Source: Methylophilaceae bacterium LSUCC0717
Lineage (GTDB): Bacteria > Pseudomonadota > Gammaproteobacteria > Burkholderiales > Methylophilaceae
DNA: 64,000 nt
Reading direction: 5' to 3'
Assembly (NCBI GenBank): GCA_024919195.1
Contig: CP103436.1
Span: 248,001 to 312,000, forward strand
Part shown: piece after piece, positions 44,932 to 48,202 of the stretch
How positions within the stretch are numbered: the stretch's first letter is position 1
Layout: each line of letters opens with the position of its first letter
Program-made: the position numbers and the translations under genes
Notes under the pieces: generated by a model
Seen by the model: only the letters and a program-made list of their open reading frames with translations
What the model was told of the DNA's origin: nothing
Database searches by the model: none

Positions 44932-46012
44932 CCAATATTTTTTCATCAAGTTGATAACTTGTATATTGTTTGTAATCAGTATTAATTTTATTTGAATGGT
45001 TATTTTTACTTAAAATTTTCTCTAAAGACAAATTTAACTCCTCTTGAGAGAATGGTGAATGAAGGACTATTGATTTTTTATCATCCTGGACGTAAGAGCT
45101 GTAACCACAATTATCTGTAGTTATAATTGGTAAGTTTTGAGACAGTGCTTCAATAAGTATCAACCCTGTATTTTCATATCTTGCTGGATGTATAAGCGCG
45201 CTTGCCTCTCTCATGAGGTGAGGAACATTGTCATGTCCATGAAAGATTTTAATAGAATTCTCAAGATCATAGCGAGCAATCAGTTTTCGATATGATTTTT
45301 CTTTATCTTTACCAAAAATGGCAAAGTTATAATTATTTCTAATTTTCTCTGGCAGGCTCGAGAAAGCAATAATTGCACGATCCAAACCTTTGGTCTTAAA
45401 TCCAGAACCAATAAAGATAAGTAATTTGTTATTTTTTTTGAAATATCTATTTATTGACGATATAGATTTACTTGAATCAATGAAAAAATTTTTATCAATA
45501 TAAGGTGGGATGAATATAAATTTACTATGAGGGGTTTTATAAATTGATTTATAAATTTCGTTTTCTTTTTTTGATATAGATAGTATCTTTGTTTTCGATT
45601 TTGGATTAAAAATTTGAAATTCTTCTTCATGAAAAAATTGGTATCTTGGCGATAGGTTTTTTAGAAAGTTTTTATTTTTACTAGCAAAACAGGAGTCAGC
45701 AGCATAATAAAAATCAAACCCAGAAATTTTACTAAAACTAATTGATATAACATTAGTTTTGTTTTCAATATATTGTGAAACCTTATGTTTAAATTCTAAG
45801 TATCGACGGTAATTAAAAAAACAGTTTGATTGAATAATTTTTAAAGAAATATTTTTTTCTTTTGGGTAGTTTCCATCCCAATCCATACAAACTATTTCAA
45901 CCAAATTTTTTTTACATAATGTTTTAGCTAATTGTAATAAATCTCTTTGAGCTCCACCGTATGGAAAATACTTAAAGATGATTAAAACAAATTTTTTGGA
46001 TTCTTTAATCAA
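44921..46012 (-). CDS. WaaG-like LPS core glycosyltransferase (GT4)
   Basis: A 363-residue GT-B enzyme. The N-terminus FKYFPYGGAQRDLLQLAKTL closely resembles WaaG, which adds the first glucose to heptose of the LPS outer core. The middle has YYAADSCFASK and the C-terminal donor site has FIGSGFKTKGLDRAI, HPARYENTGLILIEAL and TDNCGYSSYV. gmhB elsewhere in the window supports a heptose-containing core. The start is TTG at 46012, overlapping the DUF2970 stop by 8 bases (TTGATTAA). Confidence 0.85.
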   Translation of the reverse strand: MIKESKKFVLIIFKYFPYGGAQRDLLQLAKTLCKKNLVEIVCMDWDGNYPKEKNISLKIIQSNCFFNYRRYLEFKHKVSQYIENKTNVISISFSKISGFDFYYAADSCFASKNKNFLKNLSPRYQFFHEEEFQIFNPKSKTKILSISKKENEIYKSIYKTPHSKFIFIPPYIDKNFFIDSSKSISSINRYFKKNNKLLIFIGSGFKTKGLDRAIIAFSSLPEKIRNNYNFAIFGKDKEKSYRKLIARYDLENSIKIFHGHDNVPHLMREASALIHPARYENTGLILIEALSQNLPIITTDNCGYSSYVQDDKKSIVLHSPFSQEELNLSLEKILSKNNHSNKINTDYKQYTSYQLDEKILANI

Positions 46013-46196
46013 GAATGATTGATACCACAGTTACAATTGAGATTATAAAAATAAGAGCTAACACTAGACCAACGAGCATATAAGGCATAAATCCATTTTT
46101 TTCAATAAATTTATCATCATCATTAAATTTACTATTTTTTTGAATTCCAATAAATGCTGCAAGAACACTTTGGATTATATTAAGCAATGTTTTCAT
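46005..46196 (-). CDS. DUF2970 small membrane protein
   Basis: A 63-residue protein with one C-terminal hydrophobic segment (about 40-62, VGLVLALIFIISIVTVV). The N-terminus LLNIIQSVLAAFIGIQKNSK is the family signature. No function is known. It is translationally coupled to the WaaG-like gene. Before the islet insertion it was the gene immediately downstream of tRNA-Met. Confidence 0.8.
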   Translation of the reverse strand: MKTLLNIIQSVLAAFIGIQKNSKFNDDDKFIEKNGFMPYMLVGLVLALIFIISIVTVVSIILD

Positions 46197-46284
46197 TTAA
46201 GTACTAGCATAAGAAGTTAACTATTTAATATACGTAATTATATTATTTTTTCAATAAATATCTGTTAAATTTTAATATTAAGTA

Positions 46285-46355
46285 ATTGATTTTAAATGAA
46301 TTAGTGGTGGTGATGGAGAGACTTGAACTCTCGACCTCAGGATTATGAATCCTGC
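46285..46355. repeat. 71-bp direct repeat, distal copy (att-like)
   Basis: Identical over 71 bp to 46978-47048. It contains the 3' 51 nt of tRNA-Met (46305-46355) and 20 bp beyond the CCA end. Beyond 46355 the match to the intact tRNA falls to weak similarity. Placed at the end of the islet away from the functional tRNA, as the displaced host fragment would be after tRNA-targeted integration. Confidence 0.9.
46305..46355 (-). pseudogene. Truncated tRNA-Met 3' fragment
   Basis: 51 nt identical to the 3' portion of tRNA-Met at 46998-47074: the anticodon arm from its first stem bases, the variable region, T arm, acceptor 3' strand and CCA. The D arm and 5' acceptor are missing. The next bases (46357-46370) keep only about 12 of 16 aligned matches to the D arm. 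Not a functional tRNA. Confidence 0.88.
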
Positions 46356-46362
46356 AGCATAA

Positions 46363-46902
46363 TCAGTTAGTATTTTTCTTAGGTTTTACAACTAACCAAA
46401 AACCATTACCCATCATTTGATGTTCTATTAGGCGAATAATATCAAAATATTTTATAAGTTTTTCTAACCACCATGATGATGGTTCCTGAATGAGGTGTGC
46501 ATTTCGCCCATCTGAAAGAACTTTTCCGGCTGGACCCATGTGAACGGTATAAAAACCAATATTTTTTGTTATTAAGGATAACTCCTTAATAACATTATCA
46601 ACAAGATTTGGTTCAATATGTTCTAAGACATCAATACAACATACAAGATCTGCTTCTTTTGGTTCGCCGTATTCTGGAAATGCTGGGTCATATGGAAAAT
46701 ATTCTTTTGGAGTATTGTTTAATTTTTCAAGAGATTCAAATAACCTTTTTTTACCTGCACCGTAGTCTGTAAGACTATTAATTTTAAAAACCTTAATTAT
46801 CTCAGAGACTATTGGGGCAAAATGAGTAGAGGCAATTCCATAATTGGGATTTTCATGTAACTCTTGTTGTAATTTTCTATATTCTTCTGAAATAGTTTTC
46901 AT
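46363..46902 (-). CDS. Class I SAM methyltransferase-like protein, phage-type cargo
   Basis: A 179-residue protein. SLTDYGAGKKRLFE (43-56) is the SAM-binding motif I. YDPAFPEYGEP (71-81) supplies an acidic residue, and ADLVCCIDVLEHIEP (84-98) is motif IV typical of Rossmann methyltransferases. FYTVHMGPAGKVLSDGRNAH (118-137) and LIQEPSSWW complete a pattern I associate with proteins of marine phages such as cyanophages; that recollection is unverified. Substrate unknown. The gene lies inside the tRNA-Met islet and its TGA stop abuts the truncated tRNA copy. It is preceded by three TATAAT boxes. Confidence 0.75.
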   Translation of the reverse strand: MKTISEEYRKLQQELHENPNYGIASTHFAPIVSEIIKVFKINSLTDYGAGKKRLFESLEKLNNTPKEYFPYDPAFPEYGEPKEADLVCCIDVLEHIEPNLVDNVIKELSLITKNIGFYTVHMGPAGKVLSDGRNAHLIQEPSSWWLEKLIKYFDIIRLIEHQMMGNGFWLVVKPKKNTN

Positions 46903-46908
46903 AAAATT

Positions 46909-46934
46909 ATTATACTTTATTATACTTTATTATA
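46909..46934 (-). promoter_or_regulatory. Three tandem TATAAT boxes, 10-bp period
   Basis: On the minus strand TATAAT occurs at 46934-46929, 46924-46919 and 46914-46909, each unit being AAAGTATAAT. From the last box the expected start site, seven bases downstream, is the A of the methyltransferase ATG at 46902, so the transcript could be leaderless. No good -35 is visible. Tandem 10-bp units can expand or contract by slippage. Confidence 0.55.
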
Positions 46935-46977
46935 CTTTTTAAAATCTATTAACTAAGATTAATTTTATTTACAAGTG

Positions 46978-47048
46978 ATTGATTTTAAATGAATTAGTGG
47001 TGGTGATGGAGAGACTTGAACTCTCGACCTCAGGATTATGAATCCTGC
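46978..47048. repeat. 71-bp direct repeat, proximal copy (within tRNA-Met)
   Basis: Identical over 71 bp to 46285-46355. It covers the 3' 51 nt of the functional tRNA-Met and 20 bp downstream of its CCA. Confidence 0.9.
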
Positions 47049-47116: not shown

Positions 47117-48202
47117 CTAAACATTAAATTTGAAGTGAATAACATCCCCATCTTTAACTATGTAATCTTTTCCTTCTAACCTTTGCTTTCCTGCTTCCTT
47201 CGATTTTTGCTCTCCTCCAAAATTTATGTAGTCTTCAAAGGAAATTACTTCTGCTTTAATGAAACCTCGTTGGAAGTCAGTGTGGATAACACCAGCAGAC
47301 TCTGGTGCTGTGTAACCATTTTTAATGGTCCATGCTCTTACTTCTTTTACTCCGGCTGTAAAGTAAGTTTGTAAGTTTAAAAGGGCATAGGTTTCTCTAA
47401 TGATAAGATTTAAACCAGGCTCCTCAACATTTAATTCTGATAAAAATAATTCTTTTTCTTCATCAGTTAAATCTGCAATCTCTGATTCAATTTTTGCGCA
47501 TATGGGAATGCATTTTGATTCATGTGTTGCGGCAAAATCTATTACTTTTTGTAAATACTCATTATTTTTAAATCCACTCTCATCAACATTCGCAACATAC
47601 ATGACGGGCTTTAATGTTATTAAGAATAATGGCTGAAGAAGTTTTAAATCATCCTTTTCAAGGCCCATATCTTTTAATAATGTACCTTGATTAAGTTTTT
47701 CTAAAACCAATTCATATAGATTAAGTTTTTTTAAAGCCTCTTTATCACCTGATTTTGATTTCTTTTTTTCTTTTTCAATGGCTTTTGATACTGACTCCAT
47801 GTCTGCTAAGATCAATTCAGTATTGATGGTCTCTATATCTCCAAGTGGATCAATTTTTCCATCTACATGCACGATGTTTTCATCATCAAAGCATCTGACG
47901 ACATGCAGGATAGCGTTCGTTTCCCTAATATTAGCGAGAAACTTATTTCCTAAGCCTTCTCCTTTTGAAGCCCCAGCCACTAGCCCAGCAATATCAACAA
48001 ACTCAACAATTGCTGGCATAATTTTTTCAGGATTCACAATGGCTGCTAATTTGTTGAGTCTTAAATCTGGTACTTCAACAATGCCTGAGTTTGGCTCAAT
48101 TGTGCAAAAGGGATAATTTGCAGCCTCTATTCCTGACTTTGTAATTGCGTTAAATAAGGTTGATTTGCCAACATTAGGTAATCCAACTATGCCACATTTC
48201 AT
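47117..48202 (-). CDS. ychF: Ribosome-binding ATPase YchF
   Basis: A 361-residue Obg-family P-loop protein with ATPase rather than GTPase preference. The G1 motif is [14 protein letters not shown] (residues 6-19), G3 is [18 protein letters not shown], and the ATP-specifying NxxE-type motif is [12 protein letters not shown]. The C-terminal TGS-like domain has [15 protein letters not shown] and [19 protein letters not shown]. It is 4 bp after pth, the usual neighbour. Confidence 0.96.

Follow-up and report, generated by a model that had tools for sequence, protein, structure and literature searches.

A tRNA-Met-bounded methyltransferase islet in an OM43-clade Methylophilaceae genome: a probable member of a family of integrase-less cassettes

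Results

LSUCC0717 is an OM43-clade member of the Methylophilaceae and a relative of KB13, with which its ychF gene shares 97.6 % nucleotide identity. Its genome is a single contig of 1.27 Mb, and the 64 kb stretch at positions 248001–312000 is referred to here as the window; coordinates are positions in the window unless stated otherwise. Read along the minus strand, on which all of the features lie, the locus comprises the conserved ychF gene (47117–48202, an ORF call that adjoins the tRNA in the comparison of sites given below), a complete tRNA-Met gene with a CAT anticodon (47074–46998, the sole tRNA-Met call made by ARAGORN), a leader, an ORF of 179 aa (46363–46902), a 51 nt 3′ fragment of tRNA-Met (46305–46355), a shared 20 bp sequence (46285–46304) and a DUF2970 gene (46005–46196; Pfam PF11174).

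The first-pass annotation had described a perfect direct repeat of 71 bp, composed of the final 51 nt of tRNA-Met and 20 bp past its CCA, with a complete tRNA on one side and a 3′ fragment on the other. Sequence comparison and ARAGORN confirmed both points. The proximal copy (46978–47048, tRNA nt 27–77 plus 20 bp, attL-like) and the distal copy (46285–46355, with its attR-like tRNA fragment) are identical without a mismatch, and the intact tRNA and the displaced fragment bound the insert in the same orientation, as in a tRNA-targeted island. Elsewhere in the window, exact direct repeats of 25 bp or more were limited to two 34 bp stretches shared by neighbouring tRNA-Arg genes. The description of the insert as carrying one methyltransferase-like gene was also accurate, as the 179 aa ORF is its sole evident gene and a 54 aa ORF on the opposite strand merely overlaps it. 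Similarity between the two flanks extends past the 71 bp, since the DNA beyond the distal fragment (46224–46304) aligns with the proximal leader across 82 nt at 75 % identity (E value 2.1e–7); the distal flank therefore looks like a relic leader from an older cassette.

The interval between ychF and DUF2970 was compared in 31 genomes of the genus, LSUCC0717 included. The codes needed here are G015 (KB13), G007 (LSUCC0401), G005 (LSUCC0665) and the metagenome-assembled genomes (MAGs) G010, G011, G026 and G030. It is apparent that occupancy of the site varies among relatives. A cassette leader with phased repeats was found in eight of the 31 genomes, with visible cargo in seven of these and two visible copies of the repeat in six. 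The leader is followed by the methyltransferase gene in G000, G015 and G001, by a glycosyltransferase-like gene in G005, by an FkbM and a glycosyltransferase-like gene in G007 and G010 (divided over two contigs in the latter) and by a different FkbM gene, inside which the contig stops, in G026; in G030 the leader stands alone before the contig end. In G011, a close relative, one repeat is present and cargo is absent. Three genomes (G018, G025 and G027) have genes in the gap and lack the tRNA repeats, and 12 have a gap of 15–74 bp and no cassette (the tRNA end being estimated in G014). In G029 a FemAB gene follows after a 300 bp gap and no DUF2970 match was found. Contigs end at or in the tRNA in G006, G008 and G020, and the site was not located in G002, G021 and G028. 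The first-pass annotation had proposed that such a comparison would support a mobile cassette if other cargo, or a site lacking cargo, were encountered; both were seen, as the repeats enclose alternative cargo in G005, G007 and G010, and G011 is a cargo-less, single-repeat relative. The ychF–tRNA-Met–DUF2970 interval is an insertion hotspot.

In a one-gene tree of ychF (27 genomes), G011 clusters with G000, G001 and G015 (93/96, the inner order being open), and G005, with its other cargo, falls just outside that group. G026 is sister to the cassette-less G019 (100/98). The flank remaining in G011 is leader-like (71 %, E value 8.4e–6), so its site may have lost a cassette instead of being pristine.

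A contig of genome G061, which lies outside the 31, provides a more elaborate arrangement. This contig (JAQBUY010000138.1, 3012 bp, hereafter L149) begins inside tRNA-Met, at nt 11, and continues with a leader, a 229 aa methyltransferase-like gene, an FkbM gene, a glycosyltransferase-like gene and a right end; a tRNA 3′ half, a second leader and the start of a second FkbM gene follow. This order indicates two cassettes in tandem with a tRNA half between them, that is, serial insertion at one tRNA with intervening repeats, the second cassette being cut by the contig end. The three-gene order of the first cassette is the same as that in G018, the cargo of which lacks tRNA repeats.

The cargo genes were examined by profile searches. 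The FkbM proteins match TIGR01444/PF05050, and the 229 aa protein of L149 matches PF04989 (rhamnosyl O-methyltransferase) just below the cut-off. The match of the glycosyltransferase-like protein to PglH is weak, far below the cut-off, so that its name is tentative. The 179 aa protein of the window matches phrog_24759 (methyltransferase), with sub-threshold matches to Pfam methyltransferase models; it also matches 22 phage records, and has relatives in 231 viral-contig stretches (57–63 % identity among 80 of the 231). In seven viral loci inspected by eye, this gene mostly lies on the strand opposite to its neighbours, and by our own reading a terminase-like ORF is present in at least two of the seven. 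A scan of viral contigs with the glycosyltransferase-like protein gave no confirmed relative, and no match to the cargo proteins searched was found in the PDB. A single weak PADLOC match (glycosyltransferase-like protein, E value 0.0016) was left out of the argument. Considered as a group, the cargo genes suggest a role in the sugar coat or cell surface.

The leaders share motifs that were spotted after looking at the data and were not predicted beforehand. The sequence WATCAANNNNTTR, which we take to be the consensus for integration host factor (IHF), was scored in 17 copies of the DNA that follows the tRNA or a tRNA half (11 proximal, six distal). It was matched in 15 (10 of 11 proximal and five of six distal), compared with none of 16 sites without the block. 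Nine of the ten leaders have an exact match, G011 supplying the other proximal one, and the deviants are the G026 site and the distal copy in G010. In the window, AATCAATCACTTG (46972–46984) is the proximal and AATCAATTACTTA (46279–46291) the distal site. The match occupies positions 14–26 in 14 of the 15 copies and lies 7 nt further in the first leader of L149. Single matches carry little weight, as the window holds 20 against a shuffle mean of 12.5. The case comes instead from the columns of 16 aligned copies, which read AATCAA (one change), four variable positions, TT (one change) and a purine; fixed and variable columns track the consensus, a pattern noticed after the fact. Three PF00216 (HU/IHF-type) genes are present in the LSUCC0717 genome.

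Downstream of the IHF-type site, the leader of the window contains three direct repeats of GTATAAT, phased at 10 bp and resembling arm-type sites (46908–46937), an exact pattern confined to this site among the 31 genomes. The general pattern, AAGTRTAWTAAAGTRTAWTR, occurs at nine places in eight of the 31 genomes, every one at the tRNA-Met site; a reversed-pattern control gave one match and shuffles of the window a mean of 0. Because these leaders served to define the pattern, its absence elsewhere is the informative part. The first leader of L149 has the variant word ATGTAAT. Measured from the anticodon, the IHF-type site lies at +56 and the phased words at +103/104 in the eight G-genome leaders and the second leader of L149 (the +56 count takes the G026 site with one change allowed); in the first leader of L149 both distances are shifted by 6. 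The spacer between IHF-type site and words measures 34–35 bp in all ten leaders. In comparisons of five representatives, seven of ten spacer pairs showed no resemblance beyond that of shuffles (5 % level). The remaining three were more alike than most shuffles (G005 with the first leader of L149, 38 of 2000 shuffles as alike; G007 with G026, 10; G007 with the first leader of L149, none), so the equal spacing is partly a matter of common descent. Directionality-factor sites are described as direct repeats one helical turn apart (PMC7498355, in part), and the phased words may just as well be sites of that kind.

Right ends are 76–87 % identical among G005, G007, G010 and L149. An inverted pair, GTRTAWTATAWTAYAC, stands at –61/–62 from the anticodon of the fragment in all four complete right ends; as a palindrome it is found in four of the 31 genomes, three times at these right ends and once elsewhere (G012). 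In G007, G010 and G005 the inverted pair repeats the 7 nt word of the cassette’s own leader, an event seen in none of 5000 shuffles for each, with the word alone occurring in 0, 4 and 21, respectively. In L149 cassette A the right-end word differs from the leader word. The tRNA halves start at tRNA nt 26–33 and show two mismatches in 7 × 45 nt. In a search of 120 genomes of the family, right-end DNA was found in G005, G007 and G010, together with a weak 34 nt match at a different place in G018. No match to the IHF consensus was found in the right ends. The possibility that the right end is an RNA family was rejected: at three loci, just the tRNA reached the gathering score (L049, L050), and the two tmRNA matches obtained were sub-threshold and overlap the tRNA half. 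L149 and G005 share an identical 34 aa ORF in the right end (L149:2566–2670). The ORF is altered in G010 and disrupted in G007; as it also has no Pfam or PHROG match, it was taken as non-coding, and the region is perhaps under non-coding constraint. Judged from sequence alone, att-like ends are retained without an integrase, as in a non-autonomous element. For the right end this holds in G005, G007, G010 and L149; the copy in the window has the left arm and lacks the conserved right end.

Both inheritance and exchange have left traces. Among G000, G015 and G001 the methyltransferase genes are 99.1, 95.4 and 96.3 % identical, compared with 97.6, 93.7 and 94.4 % for ychF; divergence is alike, so the cassette was probably inherited there. 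The copy in the window is probably trapped or fixed. Between G030 and G001, ychF is 71 % identical, compared with 94 % for the leader (86 nt) and complete identity for the 34 nt spacer, the G030 copy lying at a MAG contig end where chimerism is possible. The FkbM genes of G007 and G010 are 97.6 % identical, which exceeds expectation from the ychF branches (approximately 0.1 changes per site). Between G005 and G007 the right ends agree at 85 % and the preceding genes at 57 % of nucleotides, showing that cargo has been swapped between ends that stay constant.

No integrase gene was found inside the cassettes read (the site comparison and L149), whereas one is expected in a tRNA-targeted integrative island. 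It was of interest to look for a helper elsewhere. The LSUCC0717 genome has two PF00589 genes, both Xer-sized, at 0.136 and 1.182 Mb. Around the extra PF00589 genes of relatives, the 71 bp query gave no match beyond 13–14 bp in 15 stretches; three further PF00589 matches, in G006:C7, G020:C18 and G029:C1 near 474 kb, lie outside these 15. Scans of viral contigs for an attP-like sequence with five patterns (tRNA half, block, shorter tRNA half, right-end core, and IHF site plus phased repeats) gave 0 matches. A blastn search of phage records with the tRNA plus leader gave only partial matches, in 274 records, none with at least 80 % query coverage at one place; among 20 of these matches, the four that were annotated are tRNA genes. 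For the OM43 phage Melnitz, the sections of PMC9004378 considered here report that a search for an integrase gave none.

The extra integrase of G005, beside another tRNA-Met, was considered and rejected: a 17 kb stretch contains neither a second copy of the last 18 nt of that tRNA-Met nor phased words of this family. The integrase-like ORF near it encodes 381 aa (L123:7733–8878).

A comparator was found in G001, where an element of 3.8 kb occupies tRNA-Phe (L118:5665–9442) with an integrase-like ORF beside the tRNA; two more long ORFs are present. TGTCCTT, an arm-like word chosen by eye, is present five times in a 17 kb stretch of G001. Four of these copies belong to the element, two of them direct and spaced 11 bp apart within the leader and the other two forming an inverted pair at its opposite end. 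No IHF match was found in the stretches of the element tested. By this word layout, the cassettes share their general plan with an integrase-bearing island found within their own genus.

Discussion

The cassettes can be compared with several described systems. Islander makes an integrase gene a requirement; the same source acknowledges that some islands encode none, and it places anticodon-centred sites in class ‘A’ (PMC4383910, in part). Islands of that kind share with the cassettes the complete tRNA and 3′ tDNA fragment in the same orientation, ending near the anticodon loop; Islander resolves tandems only where each member has an integrase and a fragment, whereas the cassettes have no integrase and measure about 0.7–2.7 kb. 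Three large islands and small insertions have been reported in the Methylophilaceae, and in the sister genus small additive islands (330 bp and up, 1–63 genes) follow tRNA-derived repeats (PMC10872708, in part). One of these, fGI-2 at tRNA-Lys of ‘Ca. Methylopumilus’, is like the cassettes in having recurring tRNA-derived direct repeats and starting from 330 bp and one gene in a sister lineage; it differs in its tRNA, its cargo and its 20 bp repeats, and no IHF-type or arm geometry is described for it in the parts of that report considered here. No copy of the 20-mer was found in ten 20 kb stretches (200 kb) of G068, a genome of another genus presumed to be Methylopumilus. The 20-mer was published as the last 20 nt of tRNA-Lys (PMC10872708); by our own reading its reverse complement resembles a tRNA 5′ end.

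The ‘tycheposon’ fGI-3 of the same report borders tRNA-Met, spans 4–200 kbp and is described there as containing xerD and ending at glmS. In LSUCC0717 glmS lies at 1.253 Mb and the cassette site at 0.295 Mb, and G005 has another tRNA-Met at roughly 0.145 Mb, close to a PF00589 gene; the site is unlikely by position to be fGI-3, which most likely borders a different tRNA-Met. No recombinase was seen in the cassettes, and their 0.7–2.7 kb contrasts with 4–200 kbp. The term ‘ychF’ does not occur in the main text of PMC10872708, and no other paper on this tRNA-Met locus was among the literature matches listed, coverage being partial. The first-pass suggestion that such elements are undescribed thus needs qualification: small additive islands have been published for the sister genus, and this locus is unmentioned in the parts of that account considered here. 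Relative to tRNA-targeted and additive islands, the cassettes are a new variant.

The lambda att site is built from core, arm and IHF sites (PMC4880445, in part). As there, the cassettes have an IHF-type site between the core and arm words on one side, with further arm words on the other; unlike lambda, they have no integrase, and their right ends have no IHF match. Core-to-arm distances differ from those that we take to be lambda’s. The layout of leader and right end resembles a lambda-type att site whose crossover would fall in the anticodon loop. Integron arrays amass cassettes of one to three genes at one platform, the recombinase lying outside the cassette. The present cassettes likewise have one to three genes, one platform and a putative recombinase outside, and unlike those of integrons each brings its own leader and tRNA half.

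We favour, with moderate confidence, the interpretation that the islet is one of a family of minimal integrative cassettes that are non-autonomous and depend on a lambda-type integrase in trans. The proposed unit would consist of the tRNA-Met 3′ half, the IHF-type site, the spacer, the 10 bp-phased direct repeats and one to three genes of glycan-modification type; a complete unit would add the conserved right end with its inverted pair of a similar word. The arm words would be bound by a putative lambda-type tyrosine integrase provided in trans, with the DNA bent by IHF at its predicted site, and strand exchange would take place in the anticodon loop, the putative crossover region (anticodon at 47038–47040) to which the starts of the fragments in seven copies point. 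Exchange there would mean that the tRNA is made whole again at each insertion while a 3′ half comes to lie beyond the insert, and the 3′ part of the present target tRNA-Met would then derive from the cassette. Repeated insertion could build arrays, and recombination between halves could delete cassettes.

An unlikely account, a replacement-island model, is that no dedicated recombinase operates now. Once DNA has been taken up, RecA-dependent exchange would replace or remove glycan genes, with the tRNA halves, leaders and conserved flanks as mere homology handles. The 71 bp repeats and the extended leader homology are enough for loop-out, cargo occurs without repeats in G018, G025 and G027, no integrase was seen at the site, and glycan-gene replacement islands have been published for the Methylophilaceae (PMC10872708, in part). 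Such exchange does not, however, predict that fragments end at tRNA nt 26–33, that spacing is near-constant across partly unrelated spacers or that the inverted pair stands at a fixed distance. The cassettes might also descend from ordinary integrase-bearing islands that lost the integrase long ago and are decaying vertically, as the parallel divergence of the methyltransferase and ychF genes in G000, G015 and G001, the missing right arm of the window’s copy and the relic leaders downstream would suggest; a single old relic is nevertheless hard to reconcile with several cargos between the same ends, with the tandem arrangement and with tRNA halves nearly free of mutations, and this history is considered improbable. 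Least credible, and very improbable in our judgement, is the view that the leader is no more than a common promoter/operator region, duplicated along with the end of the tRNA, in which the phased TATAAT-like words are promoters and there is no mobility. The words in G000, G015 and G001 do read TATAAT and stop a few bases before the start codon, but the variants GTGTAAT and GTATATT would presumably be poor –10 boxes, the words return as a far-end inverted pair in three copies, and their spacing is fixed to the anticodon.

The first-pass proposal of a mobile cassette served by an integrase in trans is thus supported in part, for the family, by alternative cargo, the cargo-less G011, the tandem in L149 and the att-like geometry. 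It does not extend as readily to the copy in the window, which is without the conserved right end and, in three species representatives, has the look of vertical inheritance.

As Islander demands an integrase gene (PMC4383910, in part), integrase-less elements this small would be missed by it, and such elements could be common in streamlined genomes. The small, readable att-like geometry, the natural swaps of cargo and the cargo-less relative make integration in trans directly testable. More speculatively, and with no great probability, OM43 bacteria may have an integron-like platform without an integron, in which the tRNA-Met site stacks surface-glycan cassettes with lambda-style ends and the integrase is not kept by the host and is supplied, for example, by phage. 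If so, the enzyme through which the cell surface changes could come from phage pressure itself. The locus suggests a route by which abundant marine bacteria under phage pressure may come to an altered surface chemistry.
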